From Gemmatimonadota bacterium (GTDB taxonomy: Bacteria; Gemmatimonadota; Gemmatimonadetes; Gemmatimonadales; GWC2-71-9), in contig QHUB01000037.1 in assembly GCA_003221035.1 (NCBI GenBank), positions 1-48,509 of the forward strand: 48,509 nucleotides of DNA, written 5' to 3'. The notes beneath the pieces were generated by a model. That model did not search any database. It saw only the letters and a list, made by a program, of their open reading frames with translations, and was not told the origin of the DNA. Every line of letters starts with the position of its first letter. The first letter of the stretch is position 1. The translations under genes were made by a program, and so were the position numbers. This document shows positions 1,416 to 11,687 of this stretch, one piece after another.

Positions 1416-2655
1416 ACAGTCTAAGGCGGAGCAAGCCCTGCCAATAATCGATGATCTCGCCGTAAACCCGTCACTGAGTCTCCACGAGCAGGCGGAAGTT
1501 GCGATGATGCGGGCCTCAGTCGAATTCCTCCTGATTACTGGATTGGGAAGTAGATACTGTGACGCTGCCAAAACCGCGCTTGAAGCCGCTCAACGAACGG
1601 AGGATCCACACCTTATTTCGCAAGCACTTTTCGAATGTGCTAGAGCGGCAGGGGACGAGGGTACGGCCGATCTTTTCAAGACAGCCGAAGCAGGAGCCGA
1701 CGCTCTCTTGGCAAAAACAAGTCCGGACCGAATACCGATGGCCATTTTGGCGAAATCATATTGTCGTTTTCTTTTGGGGGACCCTGCAGAGGCGACAAAA
1801 CGACTACGAGAAGTCCTTTACACTAGTCAACCGACCGCGAATGCCGCTCAACTCGCGATCATCCATTCGGGGCTGGGAATAAACAACTATTTCATGTGTC
1901 ATTTTGAGGAAGCCTATCAAGATTACACGAAAGCGTTCGAGCTTACGAAAAAAGTTGGCGACGACGCTCGGCTTTGCACAATTGCCGCAAATCTCTGCGC
2001 GGTTCTAATGACCCGCGGTGACTACGATAGCGCAGTGCGATATGGCAAGTTGAGCGTCAAGCACGGGGAATCATGCTCCTCCAGTTATCTGCTGGTTGCT
2101 TACACCAACCTTATTGATCCCTACATGCTCCAAGGCGATGAGTCGGCCGCCATGCAATGCCTTGAGACAGCCCAAAAATGGATGGCCCCAGAACGGCGCT
2201 GGAGGCTCAGGCTTCAGTTTATTGCGGAGGCCGCTTCGTTCGCTCTAATGCAACGGAACGTCGGATTGGCGATGGATCTCATCGCGCAATTGGAAAGTGT
2301 CTCGAGAGAACGAGAAATAGCGATACCGATGCCTGGGGCTTACTGGAAACTGAAGGCCTTCAAGATGGCGCAGATGGGTCAAATGGAAGACGCATATAGC
2401 ACAGTCTCAAAGTTGGCAACGCTATGGCGTAATACGCTAGTTCTTGCTCACCTCGATATGGTTGCTACGAAGGCGTGGCTTGAAAGATTAGATCAAGGGA
2501 CTGTCAGACCCGAAACGGCAGATGATCTGGATCTTTTTCGTCGACTTGGTGCGGTTGGAAAAAGACAGCTACTCGGGTTTCCTTGGTTCTGGGAGACCCT
2601 GGTAGATTTGCGGAGTCGACAGAAAGCGCAGCGTATTCAAGAGTGGTCTAGGTAG
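1396..2655 (+). CDS. TPR-repeat protein, probable C-terminal half of the AAA/TPR regulator
   Basis: This is a helical repeat protein of about 419 aa with TPR-like units, for example around residues 150-200 (LGINNYFMCHFEEAYQDYTKA) and 200-240 (RGDYDSAVRYGKLSV). The first available start is TTG 1396, inside the end of the ATPase frame, with no clear ribosome binding site. Reading upstream in this frame gives QLQLLLAKAF, which continues the repeat naturally up to a stop at 1375. This supports one ancestral protein with AAA_16 followed by TPRs, a common STAND layout. No C-terminal HTH is present, so it is unlikely to be a plain LuxR-type regulator. It may scaffold protein contacts for the ATPase. 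Base composition is AT-rich for this window. The gene ends convergently, overlapping the HD-GYP gene by 8 bases. Confidence 0.6.
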   Translation: MAKAFIEQSKAEQALPIIDDLAVNPSLSLHEQAEVAMMRASVEFLLITGLGSRYCDAAKTALEAAQRTEDPHLISQALFECARAAGDEGTADLFKTAEAGADALLAKTSPDRIPMAILAKSYCRFLLGDPAEATKRLREVLYTSQPTANAAQLAIIHSGLGINNYFMCHFEEAYQDYTKAFELTKKVGDDARLCTIAANLCAVLMTRGDYDSAVRYGKLSVKHGESCSSSYLLVAYTNLIDPYMLQGDESAAMQCLETAQKWMAPERRWRLRLQFIAEAASFALMQRNVGLAMDLIAQLESVSREREIAIPMPGAYWKLKAFKMAQMGQMEDAYSTVSKLATLWRNTLVLAHLDMVATKAWLERLDQGTVRPETADDLDLFRRLGAVGKRQLLGFPWFWETLVDLRSRQKAQRIQEWSR

Positions 2656-4018
2656 TGCGCGCGCTGGAACGCCGGCTTCTGGCCGCCACCTCCATACTGA
2701 GCAGCGATGTCGTCTCGGTCGTCATCTGTGGACCCAACAATCGGCGGATGCTTGCTGACTTCGAAACGAGCGCAACGAGTCTGGGATCAAACTGCCGCCC
2801 TGCATGTTTCGCAAGTTCCTCGAGCGTTCTCTGCAAACTCAACGCTTTACGATACGGTCGATCAGTAGTCATGGCATCTATGGTGTCTGCTACCATGATG
2901 ATGCGCGAACCAATCGGAATGTCCTCTCCCACCAAGCCATCGGGATAGCCCGTACCATCGTAGTTCTCATGATGATTGCGGATATCGGTCTGTACCTTGC
3001 CTCTAAACTCCGCGATTGTACTGGCTAGCTCGGCGCTCCTCACTGGGTGCGCCTGCATAAGCATGCGCTCCTCCGGAGATAACCGCCCTTCTTTTCGAAG
3101 GAGCGGAGCAAACTCCTCATAGATCTTGCCAACGTCATGAAGCAACGCGGCTGTGCCGACCTGATCGACCTGCCTAGTCGTAAGCCCCATCTCACGCGCA
3201 ATCTGTCTCGCGTACTCGGAAACCCGTACTGAATGGCCAGAGGTGTAAGGATCCCGTGCTTCGATTGACTTCACCATCAGTTCGAGCAGTTCCCTGTTAG
3301 CCCGCTCGACCTGAAGATTCATCTGGTACATATGGCGAATGAAGAACAACGGGAGCACCAGCGCTGCTAAGCCTACGATCTGGAACTGGATATAAAGGAA
3401 GGCAAGAACGATCGCGAGTGTGCTTGAAACCAAATCGTAGATGAGGGAGTCACCCGCGATTTTGGTGCGTGCTTCTCGAAGCGGGATGTCAGTTGTGAGA
3501 AATACAGCGAGAGCCACCGCCATCTGATTTACAACAAAAAACACAACTACTAGAGAGGCGAACGACAAGAAGTTCACGTGGACCTTGTCGAAACCAACAT
3601 GCCCTCCGAGTCTGCTGTACACAAAACCACCTAAACCAACAAAAAGCATGTATTGAGCGGTATTGAACGCCGCGCGAATGAGAGTCTTACGGCGCACAAC
3701 CAACTGTGAGATCAACCCGGTAAGACATGCTATGACAACTGGCCAAGGCGGAGGAAACAAGAGGACAGAAGCCAAGAATGGCACGAAGACAACAGACGAC
3801 CCGATACCCGCGTTCGAGATTCGTGGTGATGGGATGAATGAAGAATCGCTAACAACACCGAGCACGGTAAAGGCAACGAGAGCATTCCAGAATGAACGAT
3901 CCGAAAGGCTCGGCACGTACCAATCGGTCGCCGCGAGCAGCGCCGCGGCGGCCAAAGCAACTAGCAGTAGGAAAACCCGGAAACTGATTCGATCGAACTG
4001 TGGCTGCTTCTCAGTCAC
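2648..4018 (-). CDS. Membrane HD-GYP domain protein (putative c-di-GMP phosphodiesterase)
   Basis: This 456-aa protein has about six hydrophobic segments in the first 230 residues, forming an MASE-like sensory membrane domain, followed by a short linker and a C-terminal HD-GYP domain. Visible HD-GYP signatures are the HD pair in LLHDVGKI, the HH pair in NHHENYDGTGYP with the GYP motif itself, and a downstream conserved Asp in MVADTIDAM. The family hydrolyses cyclic di-GMP to GMP using a di- or trinuclear metal centre. I place the start at GTG 4018, because AGAGG lies 7-8 bases upstream; a TTG at 4057 would add 13 residues without a better site. There is no partner in an operon: it converges with the TPR gene on the left. 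Activity is inferred from motifs; the signal sensed by the membrane part is unknown. Confidence 0.85.
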   Translation of the reverse strand: MTEKQPQFDRISFRVFLLLVALAAAALLAATDWYVPSLSDRSFWNALVAFTVLGVVSDSSFIPSPRISNAGIGSSVVFVPFLASVLLFPPPWPVVIACLTGLISQLVVRRKTLIRAAFNTAQYMLFVGLGGFVYSRLGGHVGFDKVHVNFLSFASLVVVFFVVNQMAVALAVFLTTDIPLREARTKIAGDSLIYDLVSSTLAIVLAFLYIQFQIVGLAALVLPLFFIRHMYQMNLQVERANRELLELMVKSIEARDPYTSGHSVRVSEYARQIAREMGLTTRQVDQVGTAALLHDVGKIYEEFAPLLRKEGRLSPEERMLMQAHPVRSAELASTIAEFRGKVQTDIRNHHENYDGTGYPDGLVGEDIPIGSRIIMVADTIDAMTTDRPYRKALSLQRTLEELAKHAGRQFDPRLVALVSKSASIRRLLGPQMTTETTSLLSMEVAARSRRSSARTT

Positions 4019-4436
4019 CGTTGCGCCTCTGCATAAGTCCTTCGGTTGATCGCACAAAAAAAGGAGAGGGACCCCACGCCATCGCTAGAGTTGTGAAATA
4101 CCATCTGCGAAAAACAACTTCGCGACTGCCGTGAACAGAAAAGCGAGCAGTTGCAACATCGAGCGTCACCCCCTTAATGGGTCCAGCGAGTGAATACGGC
4201 CTCGCCTTTGGAGTGGTACGCCTCTCTATAGCGTACCCGACGCTCCGCTCGTCTACTGTTCGCTACGCTCCGCTCTAGCTAGCGGTGACCAGGGGCCCCC
4301 TGTTTTCGATTGCACCACAAATTCAAAGACGGCTGACGGTCCAACGACGCTACCTTGATGCTACAAATTCAAAGACGGCTGACGGTCCGACGACGCTACC
4401 TTGATGCTACAATTTCAAAGACGGCTGACGGTCCGA
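4019..4436. other. Intergenic tract with hairpin and tandem repeats
   Basis: This is the longest stretch of the window without a gene. The right part holds the 46-bp tandem repeat and the middle holds a perfect 7-bp hairpin at 4215-4237; both are listed separately. Between 4240 and 4290 the bases CGCTCCGCT and close variants recur on a short scale. I see no credible ORF, tRNA or terminator with a T-run here. It must contain the promoter of the HD-GYP gene and the 3' end of the HTH-receiver transcript, but I cannot place either. Confidence 0.5.
4215..4237. other. Perfect 7-bp stem-loop
   Basis: GGTACGC at 4215-4221 and GCGTACC at 4231-4237 are exact reverse complements around a 9-base loop. 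No T-run follows on either strand, so it is not a classical terminator. It could be an operator or an RNA structure in the upstream region of the HD-GYP gene. Confidence 0.4.
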
Positions 4437-5178: not shown

Positions 5179-5919
5179 CTACCGGCGGGCGTCCACCCAG
5201 CGGTTCGTCGCGTCCAGCACAGCCAGCACCGCGCTGCGCTCGGCCGACTCCCGAATTTCGCACGTACCCGTCAACAACTGCGCCTCGCGCCCGCCCAGGC
5301 CGTGGACGGCGACTAGCACGAACTTGCGATCGAACGCATCGATGATCTGCGCGCCCTCGAGCGCGATCGAGCTGTCGGGCAACAGGTGATCGAGACACGC
5401 CGCGGTCGCCCGCGCCGCCGCCTCCACCCGGTTCCGCACGGTATCGGTCCCGAGCTCCTCGGCGTGCGCCTCTTTCTCGCCGTACGACAGCTTCACCATG
5501 AGGTGCACGCGCTGCGGCTTGTCCGACGGCCTGACCTCGAGCGTCTTGAACACCACCACCCGGCGCTTGGACCGCTCGTTGATGGCCTCCTCCTGCAGCG
5601 CCTCGATCGACCGCACGTCCGCTACCTGCGCGACGCTGATCTTGCGGTGATCGACCTTGAAGCCGAGCTGCGCCATGAGCGCGGACTCGATGTTGCGGAC
5701 GGTCTGCTTGGGCTGCTGGCTGCCGCGCGTCGTGACGTGGATCTCGCTGACCTCGCCGAGCGGCGTCACGACGACGCGCGCCGCCACCACGCCCACCAGG
5801 CTGCTGATGAGATTCTCGACCCGCTTCATCCCCCACGGGTCGGGCGTTCCGCCACTTCCACTACCCCCGCCCAACGGCAGGTTGGGCTGATCCGAGGCCG
5901 GCGATGGATTCGACGTCAC
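5179..5919 (-). CDS. Conserved-looking protein of unknown function, partner of the FeS-GGDEF protein
   Basis: This 246-aa soluble protein matches no family I can name. The N-terminal 30 residues are disordered (Gly/Ser/Pro-rich). Two domains can be guessed. Residues 33-100 carry the conspicuous stretches LGEVSEIHVTTRG, QTVRNIESAL and VDHRKISVAQV. Residues 118-246 are an alpha/beta region with VHLMVKLSYG, ATAACLDHLL and FVLVAVHGLGGREA. There is no signal peptide and no membrane segment. Its ATG overlaps the stop of the upstream hydrogenase-like cyclase by 4 bases (ATGA), so the two are almost certainly co-translated. A role in the output or control of that cyclase is inference from this coupling. 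Confidence 0.75.
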   Translation of the reverse strand: MTSNPSPASDQPNLPLGGGSGSGGTPDPWGMKRVENLISSLVGVVAARVVVTPLGEVSEIHVTTRGSQQPKQTVRNIESALMAQLGFKVDHRKISVAQVADVRSIEALQEEAINERSKRRVVVFKTLEVRPSDKPQRVHLMVKLSYGEKEAHAEELGTDTVRNRVEAAARATAACLDHLLPDSSIALEGAQIIDAFDRKFVLVAVHGLGGREAQLLTGTCEIRESAERSAVLAVLDATNRWVDARR

Positions 5920-7673
5920 GGCGTGCTCCCTCCCCCTTCCCCTTCAACCGCGGTGGCAACCTGATTGCGGCCGAGCGCCTTCGCGCGGTAGAGCGCGCGA
6001 TCGGCGGTGACCAGCACGTCTTCATCCTGCTTGAGATCTCCACTCGCCTGCGCAGCTGCTGACGGTCCACGATACTCGGCGACGCCAATACTCGCCGTCA
6101 CCATTCCCTTCGGGTAGCCCATCGAGTGCCCGACCTCTTCGATCGACGCGCGCATCTTCTCCGCGACGCCCCGGGCCCCCTCGACTCCCGTCCCTACCAA
6201 TACCACAACGAACTCGTCGCCGCCATACCGGCCCGCCAGGTCGGTCAACCGGATGTGCGCCTGGCAGCGCCGCGCCGTCTCGCGCAGCACGGTGTTTCCC
6301 GCCTCGTGCCCGAACTTGTCGTTCACCGCCTTGAAGTTGTCGAGGTCGATGAACAGCACGGCGAAGTGCTCGCCGCTCCGGCCGCGGTGGCAGCGGGCGA
6401 CTTCGTTCGCCAGGCGGTCCCGCAGGACCCGGAAGGAGGCGAGACCGGTGAGCGCGTCCACGGCCGCTTGCTGCTGGGCGATCGTCGCCTGGCGCTCGAG
6501 GTAGCGGGGGCAGGACTTGAGCGTCGTGCGGCCCCGCGCCGCCGCGACGGCGAACTCCTGGCAGGTCTTGTAGCCGCAGGCCCCCGAATCCCAGGTCCGG
6601 CCGTTGGGCGCGAGGCCGATCTGCTCCAGGACGTATTCGACCGATTCGATCGTGGGGCCCGTGCCGTTCACCGAGATTTCGAACGCCGAGCCGACTTCGA
6701 TCTCGATGCCGTCGGCAAGCACCGGAGCGGCAGCGCGCGGCGGCTCGGTCGCCCCCACGATCGCCCGGCGCTTGAACAGCTCGTCCTTGGGGCCGAGCAG
6801 CGGGTGGTCGAGGCAGCCCTCGCAGGGCAGGATATCGATGAAGCCGAGGTCGATGCGGTCCACGCCGACCGCGCGGGCGATCCCTTCCAGGGCGCCGAGG
6901 CCCCGGACTTTTCGGAAGCGGCGGCTGGACTGGCGCTCTTCCTTTAATAGCTCGAGCGGCAGGCCGCCCGCGGTGCTCCAGTAGCGGCGCCGCTCCTCGG
7001 GGATGCGGCTGAAGAAGAGCGGCTGCTCCTGCACCCGGATGCCGCGCTTCTTGAGGATCGTCTCGAGCTCGGCGAGAGTGATGGCGGCATCGATGTCAGT
7101 TCCGCCTTCTGTCAGGCACACGCCGGCGTACACGATCGGCGCATCCTGGCCGTACATCGCCTTCAGATAGCGCGCCTCGGCCTCGATTGGCGTGGCCACC
7201 GGCGCGAGGTAGGGGATCAGCTCGGGATACTGGTTCTTGATCGTCTCGACGATGACGGGACAGGTGCTCCGGATGACAGTGCCCCCCCGCCCCCACTCTT
7301 CTTCGGTCCAGAGGTCCAGGTATTCCTTGGCGACCAGCTCGTCGCCCAGGACGCCGCGGTGCACCGTGCCAAATCCGGCGGCGTAGCAGGCGTTGACGAC
7401 CTGCTCGGGCGTCGCGGGATAGAACCAGACCGCGGATTCGACCGACAGAATCAGGACGGCTTTGTGGCTGAGGGTGTACTCGAGCGCGCGCGTGGCGTCG
7501 CCGACGGCGAGGATGGCTTCGTGGGGACACGCGGGATAGCAGAGACCCGCACGCGTGCAGGCCTCGTCCACGATCCAGACCTTCAGCTCTTCAACCGCGA
7601 CGGCGTCGGAGGGACATACCCGCACACATGCCAGGCATGCGACGCACAACTCGGGGTCGATTCTAAAATCCAC
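5916..7673 (-). CDS. Ferredoxin / iron-hydrogenase-like / Fe-S / GGDEF fusion (redox-type diguanylate cyclase)
   Basis: This 585-aa protein has four parts. Residues 1-55 form a ferredoxin-type domain with C10, C13, C16, C20 and a second motif C39, C45, C49-P, where the usual fourth Cys is Ala42. Residues 70-310 resemble the large-subunit C-terminal domain of [FeFe]-hydrogenase but are degenerate: C138 (STCP), C186 (AGVCLTEGG), C284 and C287 (PCEGC) remain, while the proton-transfer Cys and the Lys of the second motif are absent. Residues 360-392 are a Fe-S domain (ACGYKTC and a later C388). Residues 400-575 are a GGDEF domain with intact GGDEF at 484-488 and an RxxD product-inhibition site (RLTD) five residues before it. 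It should make cyclic di-GMP under control of one or more Fe-S clusters. No hydrogenase activity is expected. The start is GTG 7673. It lies first in an operon with the 246-aa gene. Confidence 0.88.
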   Translation of the reverse strand: MDFRIDPELCVACLACVRVCPSDAVAVEELKVWIVDEACTRAGLCYPACPHEAILAVGDATRALEYTLSHKAVLILSVESAVWFYPATPEQVVNACYAAGFGTVHRGVLGDELVAKEYLDLWTEEEWGRGGTVIRSTCPVIVETIKNQYPELIPYLAPVATPIEAEARYLKAMYGQDAPIVYAGVCLTEGGTDIDAAITLAELETILKKRGIRVQEQPLFFSRIPEERRRYWSTAGGLPLELLKEERQSSRRFRKVRGLGALEGIARAVGVDRIDLGFIDILPCEGCLDHPLLGPKDELFKRRAIVGATEPPRAAAPVLADGIEIEVGSAFEISVNGTGPTIESVEYVLEQIGLAPNGRTWDSGACGYKTCQEFAVAAARGRTTLKSCPRYLERQATIAQQQAAVDALTGLASFRVLRDRLANEVARCHRGRSGEHFAVLFIDLDNFKAVNDKFGHEAGNTVLRETARRCQAHIRLTDLAGRYGGDEFVVVLVGTGVEGARGVAEKMRASIEEVGHSMGYPKGMVTASIGVAEYRGPSAAAQASGDLKQDEDVLVTADRALYRAKALGRNQVATAVEGEGGGSTP

Positions 7674-7784
7674 GAAAGAGGCTCCGAGCTGGGCGCTGGA
7701 GAACCTGGAGCTAGGATCCAGGGCCGTGGTTCAGGGCGGCGCTAATCTATCGCGTGGTGGGGGAGTTGGCGATAGGATGTTTTG

Positions 7785-7808
7785 TGCGGTGTTTCCTGCT
7801 TAGGAATC
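7785..7808. repeat. Duplicated block A1, left copy
   Basis: The 24 bases here match 9389-9412 at 22 positions. It lies at the 3' end of the 38-aa ORF, whose stop (7800) is inside the block. Together with block A2 it marks a rearranged duplication of the 7.8-10.3 kb region. Confidence 0.6.
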
Positions 7809-7916
7809 ACGCGACCGGCGGCGGCGGCGCTGCTCCAGAATGATCAAGACGAACCCAGCCGCAACGAGCAATGTCATTGCGACCAGCGAAGGCACCCAAG
7901 AGATAAGAAACCTCAC
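7800..7916 (-). CDS. Possible 38-aa single-pass membrane microprotein
   Basis: A GTG at 7914-7916 overlaps the TGA stop of the upstream 74-aa gene (ATGTGA), giving a 38-aa product ending at TAA 7800. The sequence starts MRFLISWVPSLV and has one clear hydrophobic segment (about residues 3-27). It ends in a strongly basic tail with five consecutive Arg, the expected orientation signal for a cytoplasmic C-terminus. The overlap with the stop suggests translational coupling. No family is recognised. Small size makes chance possible, but the hydrophobic segment plus basic tail and the coupled start argue for a real gene. Confidence 0.45.
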   Translation of the reverse strand: MRFLISWVPSLVAMTLLVAAGFVLIILEQRRRRRSRDS

Positions 7917-8137
7917 ATCCGCTGTTTCCACGCTTCAAGGATGATCCCGACTACAATGAAAATCAATGCCATCGCGACCAGAAAGCCGACGATCGCCCCC
8001 CGCGGACCGCTGCTCTGAAAAAGCGTGTCCAATGGCGCGAAGACGAGCACAAGGATTCCAAATTCTCTCGCTGTCTCACCCACGAGCATGACGGCTCGGC
8101 GAGGGTCAATCACGGTCATGATTGTAGCAAGGGACAC
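7913..8137 (-). CDS. Small membrane protein, 74 aa, unknown function
   Basis: The product has two hydrophobic stretches, GILVLVFAPLDTLF at about residues 27-40 and GAIVGFLVAMALIFIVVGII at about residues 47-66, and ends in a basic tail. The GTG at 8137 lacks a clear ribosome binding site; ATG 8119 (MTVIDPRR) is an alternative start. The family is not recognised. It is followed by the overlapping 38-aa ORF. Part of its coding sequence (8065-8086) recurs exactly at 9419-9440, at the end of the VapC-like gene. Confidence 0.5.
   Translation of the reverse strand: MSLATIMTVIDPRRAVMLVGETAREFGILVLVFAPLDTLFQSSGPRGAIVGFLVAMALIFIVVGIILEAWKQRM
8065..8086. repeat. Duplicated block A2, left copy (22 bp exact)
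   Basis: These 22 bases are identical to 9419-9440. Here they lie inside the 74-aa membrane protein gene. In the second copy they cover the last codons and stop of the VapC-like toxin. Confidence 0.7.
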
Positions 8138-8169
8138 TCAACGCACGATCAACGGTAGCTGCGATCCAA

Positions 8170-8290
8170 CTAGTCGATCGCGTATTCCTTGAGTTTGCGA
8201 TAGAGCGTCCGCTCGCCGATCCCGAGCGTCTCGGCGGCCTTGCGGCGGTTGCCGTGCGTCTCGCGGAGTGCGGCGTCGTGATCCAACTCT
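8170..8290 (-). pseudogene. Orphan Fis-type HTH fragment of a sigma-54 activator
   Basis: The last 34 codons encode AALRETHGNRRKAAE-TLGIGERTLYR and end KEYAID. They differ at one residue from the C-terminus of the sigma-54 activator ending at 10170. DNA identity over about 110 bases is roughly 84 percent by eye, so the copy is not recent. Upstream of 8290 the homology stops abruptly and no ATPase domain is present. A 63-aa ORF can be read through it (to 8361) but its first part is unrelated. It is best seen as the surviving 3' end of a duplicated regulator gene. Confidence 0.7.
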
Positions 8291-9275
8291 AAGACCGATG
8301 GGTATTCGCTTCGTTCTTGATCTTCATGGTGGCGGGTGGCCGAACCAGGAGAATCAGGCAAATACCTTTGGGCGGCTCAACCGACTCGGTCCCTAGGGAG
8401 AAGAACATGTTGTAGTCGCGCAGCCACTCACTGACGGAGCGAATGAGCACAGTCCGCTGACCGCCCTGCCACGTTAGGACGGCCTTGGCTTCATCGAAGG
8501 GGTCAGAGCACCCCTGACGCGCATCTCTCGCAAGACCGGCTATGGAAAGGGCGGCGCCGCGCGCGTGCTCTGCGGCCTCTCTTTCATCCAGTATCTGACA
8601 GGTAACCACAAGAGTCTCGCTGCGCGCCTCACCCGAACACGCAACGGGCTTTGTCATTGTCGCGAGCAAGCCCGATGCCGCGTCGAGTGTACGTGGCTCT
8701 GCCGAAGGGAGGATTGCGTAGTTGCTCGTCGACATCGCGCCTTTGGTGGTTGCGCGCAAAACCAGCAGCGCAACCTGGGCGGCCTGCTGCGGGTCGTCGG
8801 TGAAAGGTGAGTGCCGCCCTTCCCTATCGACGCAGCCCGACCGCGACGTTCCGGAGAGCGCACCCGCGCAAATCGCGAGAAGTGAGAGATGCGTAATTCT
8901 CAGGGAATCCTCCTCATCTCGCAAAGCGAGGCCAGAACGCGTACGGGAAATAATGAAAATCAACCAGATCTGCCAAGTACCATTCGGCGACCCCCTCACC
9001 GGAATAGCGGGTCGACCCTCGATTGTGACCCATCCATGGTAAACGGCTCTCGGACTAAGAGGGGCACTTTGTGTGCTCAACTGAAAACGTCCCTGCAATA
9101 TCCTCCCCGTTCTTGCTTGCCACCCCGCATAGACGATTTCTTGCACCGGGCGGCTTACTGACGTCACCGATCGCAGGAACCGGCCATCGCTCACGAGCTC
9201 ATTCATCGGAATGAAAACGACCGTGCGAGTCGCCCTAATGAGCGACGCCGTAGAAGCCACGGTGCGGGGATGCAA
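8289..9275 (-). CDS. Unrecognised ORF, possibly two fused or degraded genes
   Basis: This is a 328-codon open frame with no recognised domain. The second part (from about 8903) looks like an exported protein: a strong GAGGAGG lies 5 bases before a CTG codon at 8903. The following residues (RITHLSLLAICAGALSG) resemble a signal peptide, then comes a Ser/Ala-rich body with motifs such as AGLARDARQG. The first part (9275-8904) reads like the end of a different protein (PVQEIVYAGWQ, WQIWLIFII). The frame is open back to a TAG near 9315 without an ATG. GC is lower than in the flanking housekeeping genes. If real, the product is either 204 aa with a non-standard CTG start or a 328-aa TTG-started protein. 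The function is unknown. Confidence 0.3.
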   Translation of the reverse strand: MHPRTVASTASLIRATRTVVFIPMNELVSDGRFLRSVTSVSRPVQEIVYAGWQARTGRILQGRFQLSTQSAPLSPRAVYHGWVTIEGRPAIPVRGSPNGTWQIWLIFIISRTRSGLALRDEEDSLRITHLSLLAICAGALSGTSRSGCVDREGRHSPFTDDPQQAAQVALLVLRATTKGAMSTSNYAILPSAEPRTLDAASGLLATMTKPVACSGEARSETLVVTCQILDEREAAEHARGAALSIAGLARDARQGCSDPFDEAKAVLTWQGGQRTVLIRSVSEWLRDYNMFFSLGTESVEPPKGICLILLVRPPATMKIKNEANTHRS

Positions 9276-9388
9276 AGGAACTTGGGGTATGTCAAGTTCG
9301 TGACAACGCTACCGCCGCCACGAACGACGCCTCCGGCAGGTTGATCCCAATCGTAAAGCAGAGGCCAATCCCAACCCGGTCTGTCGGC

Positions 9389-9440
9389 TGCGGTGTTTGC
9401 TACTTAGGAATCGCCCGACTCTCGCTGTCTCACCCACGAG
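9389..9440. repeat. Duplicated blocks A1 and A2, right copy
   Basis: 9389-9412 matches 7785-7808 (22 of 24) and 9419-9440 matches 8065-8086 (22 of 22). On the left the two blocks are 256 bases apart and enclose coding sequence; here they are only 6 bases apart. The right copy thus looks like a deletion derivative, or the left copy carries an insertion. Confidence 0.6.
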
Positions 9441-9855
9441 TCAAACCGATTGTGCTCAGTCCCAGGGCCCGCGCTGCGGCGCCGAGCCGGACGTCGTGTG
9501 TTGCGAGCACGGCGTCGTCGCCGACGTGTTCCCGCCAGGCCAGCGCGCTCGCCAAATGCACCGCATCGAGAGTTCCAAGTGTGAGCGGGAGCGGCTGTGC
9601 CGCCCGCCCGAGAATCGGCCGAGTGACCTCGACGATGGCCAGCGTATTCAGCACGTCATACACGGCAGCGCGCCGCTCTCCGACCTCGTCCTCGCTCAGC
9701 CGCTCCGCGAGACGGACACGGTCGATCGTACGCAGACACTCGACCTCGGACAGCGCGCTGGTCGCGGCGCGGTCGAGGGCGCTCCACTCGCCGAGCCGTC
9801 CCGGTTGGCCTAAAACGAGCCGAAGAATGACCGACGACTCCACGTACGCGATCAC
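9430..9855 (-). CDS. vapC: PIN-domain toxin (VapC-like)
   Basis: This 141-aa PIN-domain protein belongs to the family of Mg-dependent RNases that act as toxins of type II systems. It shows the N-terminal strand IAYVESSVILRLV, the middle acidic motif in ALSEVECLRTID, TLDAVHLASAL with the third acid, and the C-terminal THDVRLGAAARALGL. The first acidic position is Glu (YVES) where most members have Asp, which is tolerated in some subfamilies. The start overlaps the antitoxin stop by 4 bases, the usual arrangement. The last codons and stop lie in a 22-bp block shared with 8065-8086, so the C-terminus may have been exchanged. The gene sits in a rearranged patch, as is common for mobile toxin-antitoxin pairs. 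Confidence 0.85.
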   Translation of the reverse strand: MIAYVESSVILRLVLGQPGRLGEWSALDRAATSALSEVECLRTIDRVRLAERLSEDEVGERRAAVYDVLNTLAIVEVTRPILGRAAQPLPLTLGTLDAVHLASALAWREHVGDDAVLATHDVRLGAAARALGLSTIGLTRG

Positions 9856-10112
9856 CGCTCCCCACGCTCTGCGGCAAGCTGCTCCAGTACGTCGCGCTTG
9901 AGCCGCAGTGGCGCCGGCATCCGAACGTCCCCCGGACGCCGCGCTCCGGCACTCGGCTCTCGCACTGCCAGACGCGACGCTCCGCCGGTAATCGGCTCGA
10001 GCCGGGCGATCGGAGTGTCGCGGTCCAGCACCGTGATCGTCTGCCCACGTCGCACGCGGCGCAAGTAGGCGCTCAGACGACTCTTCAATTCCGCAATCTT
10101 GACTGTTGTCAT
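9852..10112 (-). CDS. vapB: Phd/YefM-type antitoxin (VapB-like)
   Basis: This 86-aa antitoxin has an N-terminal Phd/YefM fold (TTVKIAELKSRLSAYLRRVR, then GQTITVLDRDTPIARLEP) that dimerises and binds DNA. A basic, Pro/Arg-rich tail from about residue 55 would wrap the toxin. I chose ATG 10112 because the family consensus begins right there. ATG 10118 and ATG 10139 are in frame upstream, but they lie in an imperfect palindrome that looks like the operator. It lies immediately upstream of the PIN toxin and overlaps it by 4 bases. Autorepression through that palindrome is expected for the family. Confidence 0.85.
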   Translation of the reverse strand: MTTVKIAELKSRLSAYLRRVRRGQTITVLDRDTPIARLEPITGGASRLAVREPSAGARRPGDVRMPAPLRLKRDVLEQLAAERGER

Positions 10113-10138
10113 GACCATAAGATAGTCATATCTGGTCA
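10112..10138. promoter_or_regulatory. Probable autoregulatory operator of vapBC
   Basis: TGACCA at 10112-10117 and TGGTCA at 10133-10138 are reverse complements, and inner AGATA/TATCT arms extend the symmetry around GTCA with a small offset. The palindrome covers the antitoxin start, where Phd/YefM proteins normally bind to repress their own operon. Confidence 0.45.
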
Positions 10139-10169
10139 TGTTGGAAAGGCGGGGAAATTGCGCGAGACC

Positions 10170-11687
10170 CTAATCGATCGCGTACTCCTTGAGCTTGCGG
10201 TAGAGCGTCCGCTCGCCGATCCCCAGATTCTCAGCGGCTTTTCTTCGGTTGCCGTGGGTCTCGCGGAGCGCGGCATCGATCGCGGCCTTCTCGACGTCGG
10301 CCATGGACATGCCTGGCTGGTAGACGACGGGCTTTTCGGGCCCTGTGGAATCGAGAGGATCCAGGAGCCGGGAGCCGGGAGTCGGGGACGCGTGGCCTCC
10401 AACTTCGATCACTTCGACGCGTTCTGAAGGACGCTCTTCGATCCGACGCCGTAACGCTTCTATCTGCATTTTCAATTCAACCAATGTGCGGAAGATGAAC
10501 TCCAGCTCCTGACTCCCGGCTCCTGACTCCACACGAGGGACTCGCACCGGAAGGATCCGCGACCGCTCCCGGATCTCCTGCGGGATGTCCTGCGCGCGGA
10601 TCTCCCCCGCGGGCGCGAGCACCACCATGGACTCGATCAGGTTGCGCAGCTGGCGCACGTTGCCGGGCCAGTCGGCATCGTCGAGGATCTGCAGCGCTTC
10701 CGTCGTGATGCCCTTGAACGTGCGATTGTGCGCGGCGGAGAATTCCGCGATGAACGTCCGCACCAGCAGCGGGATGTCGCTGCGCCGCTCGCGCAGCGGC
10801 GGCAGATAGATCGAGAGCACGTTCAGCCGGTAGAACAGATCGTCCCGGAACGCGCCGAGGTCCACCGCCTCTTTCAGCGACTTGTTGGTCGCAGCGATCA
10901 CCCGGACGTCCACCTGAATGGCCTGCGTGCCGCCGACCCGGAAAAAAGTCTTGTCCTCGAGCACGCGCAGCAGCTTGACCTGCGTCGCGGGCGCCATTTC
11001 GCTGACTTCATCGAGGAAGATCGTGCCGCTGTTCGCCAGCTCGAACCGTCCCAGCCGCCGCTCGGCGGCGCCGGTGAACGCGCCCTTCTCGTGCCCGAAC
11101 AGCTCGCTCTCGAGCAGCGTCTCGGTGATCGCGGCACAGTTGACCGCGATGAACGCTTTGCCCCGCCGCGGCGAGAGATCGTGAATCGCCCGCGCCACCA
11201 GCTCTTTCCCGGTGCCCGACTCACCCTGCACCAGCACCGTGGACGACACGGGCGCGATCTGCTCGATCTTCACGAGCACTTCCTGGATCGGGGCCGATTC
11301 GCCGAGAATCCCGGTCCGCAGTTGCAAGCGCCGGCGATCGATCAACCGCCGCAGCGTGAGGACGACTTCGCTCGGATCGACCGGCTTCACGAGCCAGCCG
11401 GTGAGCCCCAATTCGCGGCCGATCTGGCTGGGATCGTCGTCGGTGGATTCGACGAGGCCCAACGTTGAAACGGCGTGCTCGCGGGCGGCGGCAAGCAGCC
11501 GCTGCGCGGTGGACTCGTGCAGGCCGCCGGTGAGGATGATGGCGGCCGGCTCTTTGCCGCGCACCGCACTCCGCACATCATCCAGGGACGACACCGTCGC
11601 CGTATCGTAGCCCGCTTGCTCGAGAGCCGCGTTGACCCGGACGGCTTGCTCGAGATCGTCGGTGGTGATGAGGACGCGGTCAGCCAT
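10170..11687 (-). CDS. Sigma-54-dependent activator with degenerate receiver domain
   Basis: This 505-aa NtrC-family protein has a receiver-like domain at residues 1-118, an AAA+ domain at about 126-360 and a Fis-type HTH at 455-505. The AAA+ domain is complete: Walker A GESGTGKE (155-162), the sigma-54 contact loop GAFTGA (202-207), Walker B TIFLDEVSEM and the WPGNVRQL sensor II region. In the receiver the acidic pair D10-D11 and K101 are kept, but the phospho-acceptor position is Thr53 (IILTGG). Control by ordinary phosphorylation is therefore unlikely. The linker from 385 to 450 is low in complexity and contains two heptamer tandem arrays at DNA level. The start overlaps the end of the mogA/moaB-like gene by 8 bases. 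Its target promoters are unknown. Confidence 0.9.
   Translation of the reverse strand: MADRVLITTDDLEQAVRVNAALEQAGYDTATVSSLDDVRSAVRGKEPAAIILTGGLHESTAQRLLAAAREHAVSTLGLVESTDDDPSQIGRELGLTGWLVKPVDPSEVVLTLRRLIDRRRLQLRTGILGESAPIQEVLVKIEQIAPVSSTVLVQGESGTGKELVARAIHDLSPRRGKAFIAVNCAAITETLLESELFGHEKGAFTGAAERRLGRFELANSGTIFLDEVSEMAPATQVKLLRVLEDKTFFRVGGTQAIQVDVRVIAATNKSLKEAVDLGAFRDDLFYRLNVLSIYLPPLRERRSDIPLLVRTFIAEFSAAHNRTFKGITTEALQILDDADWPGNVRQLRNLIESMVVLAPAGEIRAQDIPQEIRERSRILPVRVPRVESGAGSQELEFIFRTLVELKMQIEALRRRIEERPSERVEVIEVGGHASPTPGSRLLDPLDSTGPEKPVVYQPGMSMADVEKAAIDAALRETHGNRRKAAENLGIGERTLYRKLKEYAID
10364..10384. repeat. Heptamer tandem array (3 units, GGAGCCG type)
   Basis: The units GGAGCCG, GGAGCCG and GGAGTCG lie back to back inside the linker-coding part of the sigma-54 activator. 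Length 21 bases keeps the reading frame. Confidence 0.75.
10503..10530. repeat. Heptamer tandem array (4 units, TGACTCC type)
   Basis: The units CAGCTCC, TGACTCC, CGGCTCC and TGACTCC follow each other in the same linker. On the minus strand they read GGAGTCA/GGAGCCG, the same family as 10364-10384 and 17393-17413. Confidence 0.75.

Follow-up and report, generated by a model that had tools for sequence, protein, structure and literature searches.

Gene locus and domain architecture

The window, a stretch of 48,509 nucleotides of contig QHUB01000037.1 (assembly GCA_003221035.1) from a member of the Gemmatimonadota, an abundant and little-studied soil phylum, carries a gene for a 585-aa protein that joins a ferredoxin module, an [FeFe]-hydrogenase-like domain (H-domain), a second Fe-S domain and a diguanylate cyclase in one chain (Table 1). 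This architecture had been proposed in a preliminary description of the DNA, and the profile search recovered all four domains above the Pfam cut-offs: Fer4 (two stretches, the best at residues 4-25, E 1.2e-10), Fe_hyd_lg_C (87-288, E 2.9e-18, 66.8 bits against a cut-off of 22.1), FeS PF04060 (364-389, E 4.3e-7) and GGDEF (403-571, E 9e-37). An AlphaFold model, for which 35 orthologues of the protein itself served as alignment input, had a mean pLDDT of 79.5, the Fer4 part being weaker (about 53-72). Residues 1-336 of the model matched CpI (VIA-align Z 25.2, 3.6 Å, 327 residues, 18% identity), so that the hydrogenase fold, and no other, is predicted for residues 70-310, as expected from the earlier description; the GGDEF part resembles WspR/PleD-type cyclases. 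A chance fusion or assembly artefact is excluded by syntenic orthologues in many independent genomes, and a viral origin was set aside because the matches of a viral_contigs scan with the fusion protein were confined to the GGDEF part.

In relatives, the gene order on one strand is argF-like, gcvT, moaB-like, NtrC-type activator, fusion gene, orf246, HTH-receiver and HD-GYP. orf246, which adjoins the fusion gene in all three families that carry it (f1, the family of the window, f7 and f9), has no Pfam match. In its model (pLDDT 87) the C-terminal half is similar to the domains through which isoleucine or leucine regulates citramalate synthase and LeuA (Z 10.0, 113 residues), a moderate match that shows the fold only, and residues 27-100 are predicted to form an ACT/CzcD-C-terminal-like domain; the orf246 product may bind a branched-chain amino acid or a similar effector. 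In most relatives the NtrC-type gene lies 18-470 nt upstream of the fusion gene; in the window the two are parted by an insertion of ~2.5 kb that most relatives do not have and that carries a probable antitoxin, a PIN toxin and a second copy of the NtrC gene 3' end.

Table 1. Positions of the features discussed in the text, numbered along the window.
Feature	Position	Strand	Basis or remark
Fusion gene (hydrogenase-like Fe-S/GGDEF)	5916..7673	minus	GTG start 7673, stop 5916; 585 aa
2x Fer4 ferredoxin module, residues 1-56 (C10 C13 C16 C20 / C39 A42 C45 C49)	7506..7673	minus	Pfam, conservation
A42 for second Cys of Fer4 motif 2	7548..7550	minus	C in 67/80 orthologues
[FeFe]-hydrogenase H-domain fold without diiron site, residues 60-336	6666..7496	minus	Pfam and AlphaFold model
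C96	7386..7388	minus	
C138 (= CpI C300)	7260..7262	minus	C in 33/80 orthologues, D in 30, S in 17
C186 (= CpI C355), then LTE instead of xAK	7116..7118	minus	E189 at Lys position
C284-E-G-C287 (= CpI C499/C503), then family-specific LDHPLLGP	6813..6824	minus	Profile alignment
C-terminal FeS module PF04060, residues 361-390 (S363, C366, C371, C388)	6504..6593	minus	Pfam, conservation
S363 for first FeS Cys	6585..6587	minus	TamHydS C379 position by motif spacing
Predicted stalk helix right after C388, residues 389-409	6447..6509	minus	AlphaFold model, spacing
GGDEF diguanylate cyclase domain, residues 403-571	5961..6467	minus	Pfam, model
I-site RLTD (R475, D478)	6240..6251	minus	R and D in 80/80 orthologues
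GGDEF signature, residues 484-488	6210..6224	minus	GGDE in 80/80 orthologues
orf246	5179..5919	minus	Overlaps fusion gene stop by 4 nt; predicted LeuA/citramalate-synthase-type regulatory fold (120-246)
HD-GYP-type phosphodiesterase (MASE9-HD)	2648..4057	minus	About 0.3-1 kb downstream of orf246 in many relatives
NtrC-type sigma-54 activator	10170..11687	minus	
Insertion between NtrC-type gene and fusion gene	about 7700..10165		
PIN toxin	9430..9855	minus	In insertion
Probable antitoxin	9852..10118	minus	In insertion
Second copy of NtrC gene 3' end	8170..8278		109 bp, 86% identical to 10170..10278

The metal site of the H-domain

Residue equivalences were taken from a profile of the fusion family and the sensory hydrogenases HydS aligned to CpI. 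The four cysteines C138, C186, C284 and C287, which had been read as enough for one cubane, indeed fall on the cubane ligands C300, C355, C499 and C503 of CpI, whereas T137 occupies the position of the proton-transfer cysteine C299 and E189 that of the lysine K358. The window protein therefore presents the H-domain fold with four cubane cysteines that characterizes catalytic [FeFe] hydrogenases and lacks the lysine of PCxxK that stands beside the diiron site and helps to hold it; where an H-cluster-competent L2 motif reads GPCIAKK it has GVCLTEG. This lysine is absent in 79 of the 80 orthologues (the sole exception, K189, is not preceded by Pro).

The earlier observation that both the proton-transfer cysteine and the lysine are gone is thus correct, but the missing cysteine is no sign of decay, since it is normally missing in groups C and D of the [FeFe] hydrogenases (PMC8163306). 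The CxxC spacing of the third H-motif (L3) was likewise rejected as a sign of degeneration, because HydS proteins share it (LFCEGCINGP in L131 and others); both traits are normal in relatives. Only the absence of the lysine and of the maturation genes therefore argues against an H-cluster; what does indicate decay is the loss of the PCxAK motif.

In the genome of the window (3.36 Mb, 98.7% complete) the fusion protein is the only protein with an Fe_hyd_lg_C domain, and neither a true [FeFe] hydrogenase nor a [NiFe] hydrogenase was found. HydF was not found there above the cut-off (the best match is as long as a two-domain GTPase), and HydG was found neither in this genome nor in any fusion-bearing genome among the 395 Gemmatimonadota genomes sampled. 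HydG exceeded the cut-off in one of these 395 genomes (G001), which has a true HydA; in the second HydA genome (G009) it is truncated by the contig end. Five heme-copper oxidase genes make it very likely that the organism is aerobic.

Fe-S modules, stalk helix and cyclase output

The ferredoxin module and the second Fe-S domain named in the preliminary description are both present, but two substitutions in them, C42A and C363S, had been overlooked. Seven of the eight cysteines of the two N-terminal [4Fe-4S] motifs of HydS are found in the window protein (all eight in 64/80 orthologues), and the Cx2Cx4Cx16C motif of HydS is incomplete (Sx2Cx4Cx16C; complete in 66/80), so that only three cysteines are available at each of two cluster sites out of four. 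Across the orthologues the Fer4 cysteines, position 42 excepted, are kept in 78-80 of 80, and those of the FeS module in 79/80 (C366 and C371), 80/80 (C388) and 66/80 (position 363). The A42 and S363 substitutions of the window's genus suggest [3Fe-4S] or labile clusters with a raised potential, which would suit an aerobe; they also show that single cluster ligands can be dispensed with, which counts against an Fe-S switch.

The output domain had been described as an intact GGDEF with an RxxD I-site, and the sequence features of a diguanylate cyclase (metal-binding Asp, GG(D/E)EF signature and I-site) are all present in the window protein; the metal Asp, GGDE and the R and D of the I-site occur in 80/80 orthologues. 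It is apparently a working cyclase; with 14 GGDEF places in the genome, it is one of several. No PAS domain was matched by Pfam after the FeS module of the window protein, the link leading straight into GGDEF. From C388 to the GGDEF-proximal D406 it measures 17 residues in 80/80 orthologues, while the C287-C366 spacing varies between 71 and 80.

Orthologues, descent and selection

Of the 395 Gemmatimonadota genomes sampled, 82 carry an orthologue of the fusion protein, in most cases full length (46-88% identity); they include most genomes of f1 and members of f7 and f9 of the same class. The conservation counts rest on 80 orthologues (63 of f1 and 17 of f7/f9). One f7 sequence (L177), without many of the cysteines, is possibly from a broken gene copy. 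Close relatives with a name are all Gemmatimonadota MAGs except for one contig (L051) assigned to a betaproteobacterial MAG (BP_17), whose fusion gene is 85% identical and lies in the Gemmatimonadota gene order, probably a binning error.

All four cubane cysteines are kept in 33/80 orthologues, C138 being lost in the other 47. The cubane-bearing sequences make up 33 of the 63 sampled from f1, with the lysine lost and GGDEF attached; the cubane was lost in the other 30 of f1 (C138 to Asp) and in all 17 of f7/f9 (C138 to Ser). On a tree rooted with HydS, which was computed by a quick method with the four cysteine columns excluded and without f2, cubane presence needs two changes (support for the cubane-less f1 clade is 100, for the unity of f7/f9 only 71). 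Two losses are the simplest reading of the sequences, because HydS and part of f1 retain the cysteines. By its sequence, the fusion protein is a descendant of the group C sensory hydrogenases (HydS), relatives of which with an intact GPCIAKK exist both in the Gemmatimonadota and in the phylum to which a Defluviitaleaceae genome belongs. The families can be arranged as a series that opens with f11, where a true HydA accompanies HydS proteins bearing PAS or a histidine kinase (motif GPCIAKK or GPCVTKK), and continues with the cubane-bearing f1 sequences, the cubane-less ones of f1 and f7/f9, and f2.

The preliminary description had called the H-domain a relic, which is misleading. Its dN/dS is 0.03-0.13 in cubane-bearing and cubane-less pairs alike, about 0.1 is found in every domain of the protein, and P86, C96, D111, R135, R257, H290 and E310 are (nearly) invariant in the fusion family and not in HydS. 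Low dN/dS, fixed Fe-S and cyclase residues and invariant residues of its own indicate a working protein with a re-purposed H-domain rather than debris, and the loss of the cubane under sustained purifying selection indicates that it is maintained independently of H2. C96 is present in 78/80 of the fusion family regardless of the cubane and mostly in f2, and is absent from HydS and HydA.

In f2, a family of the same order as f1, the H-domain stands alone, with cysteines in the arrangement SC / GxC / GCxC; 8 of 14 sequences also have a TM-like helix at the C-terminus. These proteins (L110-L124) have a long low-complexity linker and no Fer4, FeS or GGDEF, a second, undescribed fate of the H-domain.

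Comparison with known systems

Group C HydS (M2f; e.g., TmHydS; HydDB C1-C3) shares with the fusion protein the order Fer4x2, H-domain, PF04060 FeS and signalling output, the CxxC third H-motif and the missing proton-transfer cysteine. The fusion protein differs from it in having no lysine (PCxAK), no PAS domain and no HydF/HydG in the genome, in the loss of the cubane in many orthologues, and in its diguanylate cyclase output: HydDB links group C to histidine kinase (C1), chemotaxis (C2) and phosphatase (C3), and gives a (putative) diguanylate-cyclase linkage only for [NiFe] group 2c (PMC5037454), which is a hydrogenase-type sensor likewise tied to c-di-GMP but an unrelated [NiFe] enzyme. The fusion protein is derived from HydS and probably works like a redox-controlled diguanylate cyclase, but because the H-cluster features looked for are absent it is better not classed among the sensory hydrogenases.

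TamHydS of group D (M2e) has the Cx2Cx4Cx16C cluster at the same place after the H-domain and no PAS domain, but it carries a working H-cluster and is not fused to an output domain; the natural S363 of the window protein mimics its C379A variant, which forms a [3Fe-4S] cluster (PMC13104023). The C-terminal cluster of TamHydS gave no response to H2 (PMC13104023), by analogy a caution for an Fe-S switch mechanism. The eukaryotic CIA factor Nar1/IOP1 is a non-catalytic protein with the hydrogenase fold and no diiron site, and the two clusters of Nar1 are rapidly destroyed by O2 (PMC12621388); unlike the fusion protein, it serves cytosolic Fe-S trafficking and has no signalling output domain. Bhr-DGC, the hemerythrin diguanylate cyclase of Vibrio cholerae, is 10-fold more active when reduced (PMC9388753) and so resembles the proposed role of the fusion protein in non-heme-iron redox control of GGDEF, but its diiron hemerythrin head is unrelated. 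Our literature search found no paper joining HydS or Fe_hyd_lg_C with GGDEF, an absence that is weak evidence.

Two sequences (L132/L133), from two genomes in the phylum of the Defluviitaleaceae genome, share the order Fer4, H-domain, FeS, helix and GGDEF with the fusion protein but have an intact GPCIAKK, no RxxD I-site, an additional HD-GYP domain and a linker of 31 rather than 17 residues. The difference of 14 equals two heptads, which could be chance (1 in 7), as the two sequences are related and represent one lineage. They would encode a putative H2-responsive c-di-GMP enzyme, a type that is not among the HydDB group C subtypes.

Proposed function and alternatives

On balance we think it probable, by no means certain, that the protein evolved from HydS, by loss of the diiron H2 site, into a diguanylate cyclase gated by Fe-S clusters, likely a redox or O2 switch. 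The idea of a non-catalytic, hydrogenase-fold Fe-S sensory head on GGDEF, already put forward in the preliminary description, is supported. In favour of the switch stand the domain matches and predicted fold, the HydS relatives, HydF, HydG and [NiFe] hydrogenase not being found in the genome, its five heme-copper oxidases, an H-domain cubane that two lineages dispense with while the other Fe-S cysteines and the cyclase residues stay fixed, the constant 17-residue spacing and the low dN/dS. Redox state or oxygen is the likely signal, as far as can be inferred, and the species sensed might be a redox partner, O2, NO or iron; Bhr-DGC would be the precedent for a redox-switched cyclase, and Nar1 for O2-sensitive clusters in a hydrogenase fold that lacks the diiron site. 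The ferredoxin clusters would exchange electrons with the cell or be oxidized by O2, and the C-terminal FeS site, the last ligand of which opens the stalk helix, would relay this state to the GGDEF dimer; the helix would alter the pairing of the two GGDEF domains and thereby c-di-GMP synthesis, the output being limited by I-site feedback.

The main rival holds that the H-domain was exapted as a receptor, either for a small molecule that would occupy the cavity vacated by the diiron site or for the orf246 product, with the Fe-S clusters mostly structural. We regard it as unlikely, yet deserving serious attention: purifying selection persists after cubane loss; C96, R135, R257, H290 and E310, absent from HydS, are invariant across cubane-bearing and cubane-less clades, a hint at a role of the H-domain beyond electron transfer; f2 has retained only the H-domain, in many cases with a TM helix at the C-terminus; and orf246 is translationally coupled and co-conserved. 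However, nothing in the sensory part is more strongly fixed than the Fer4 and FeS cysteines, no particular ligand is indicated, and orf246 may serve another function. A broader version, possible but doubtful, is that the hydrogenase fold was exapted phylum-wide as a metal-independent receptor, which would first have lost the diiron site and then, in two lineages, the cubane, gained invariant pocket residues of its own (C96, R135, H290 and others) and then been put to use in a c-di-GMP switch; another family of the order would use it as a protein by itself, in part anchored to the membrane.

If the cyclase were instead set by loss of the clusters, not by their redox state, the protein would be an occupancy switch for iron supply or Fe-S assembly, like IscR or FNR. 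The three-cysteine sites of the window's genus would be labile, and the destruction of the Nar1 clusters shows how fast O2 acts in a related fold, but the four-cysteine sites are complete in most orthologues, which makes this alternative distinctly improbable. Still far less credible is a decaying relic with no sensory role and a constitutive or dead GGDEF: cluster ligands were lost over time, but selection is strong in every domain, the catalytic and I-site residues are universal and the gene order is kept in relatives. A genuine H2 sensor with an H-cluster, for which descent from a putative H2 sensor and the four retained cysteines could speak, is close to refuted, and H2, one of the signals first considered, drops out with it, because the L2 lysine, HydG, HydF above the cut-off and any hydrogenase to regulate, [NiFe] included, were not found in the window's genome and the cubane is lost in 47/80 orthologues.

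Significance for sensory hydrogenases

Sensory [FeFe] hydrogenases have been proposed to detect H2, but physiological proof is scarce, and opinions differ on what their accessory clusters do. The fusion family is a natural experiment in which the H2 site was removed and the H-domain cubane lost at least twice. Which parts are competent for signalling is indicated by what evolution left untouched: the ferredoxin module, the FeS module at the C-terminal side of the H-domain and the exact length of the helix that leads to the output. The proteins are apparently soluble, have a simple c-di-GMP readout and come with natural S363 and A42 variants; if the Fe-S switch reading is true, this head would join the list of oxygen- or redox-controlled diguanylate cyclases. 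Among the HydS relatives we also noted fusions to a sigma-54 AAA+ activator and a Fis HTH (L131, L135 and others), putative H2-sensing transcription factors.
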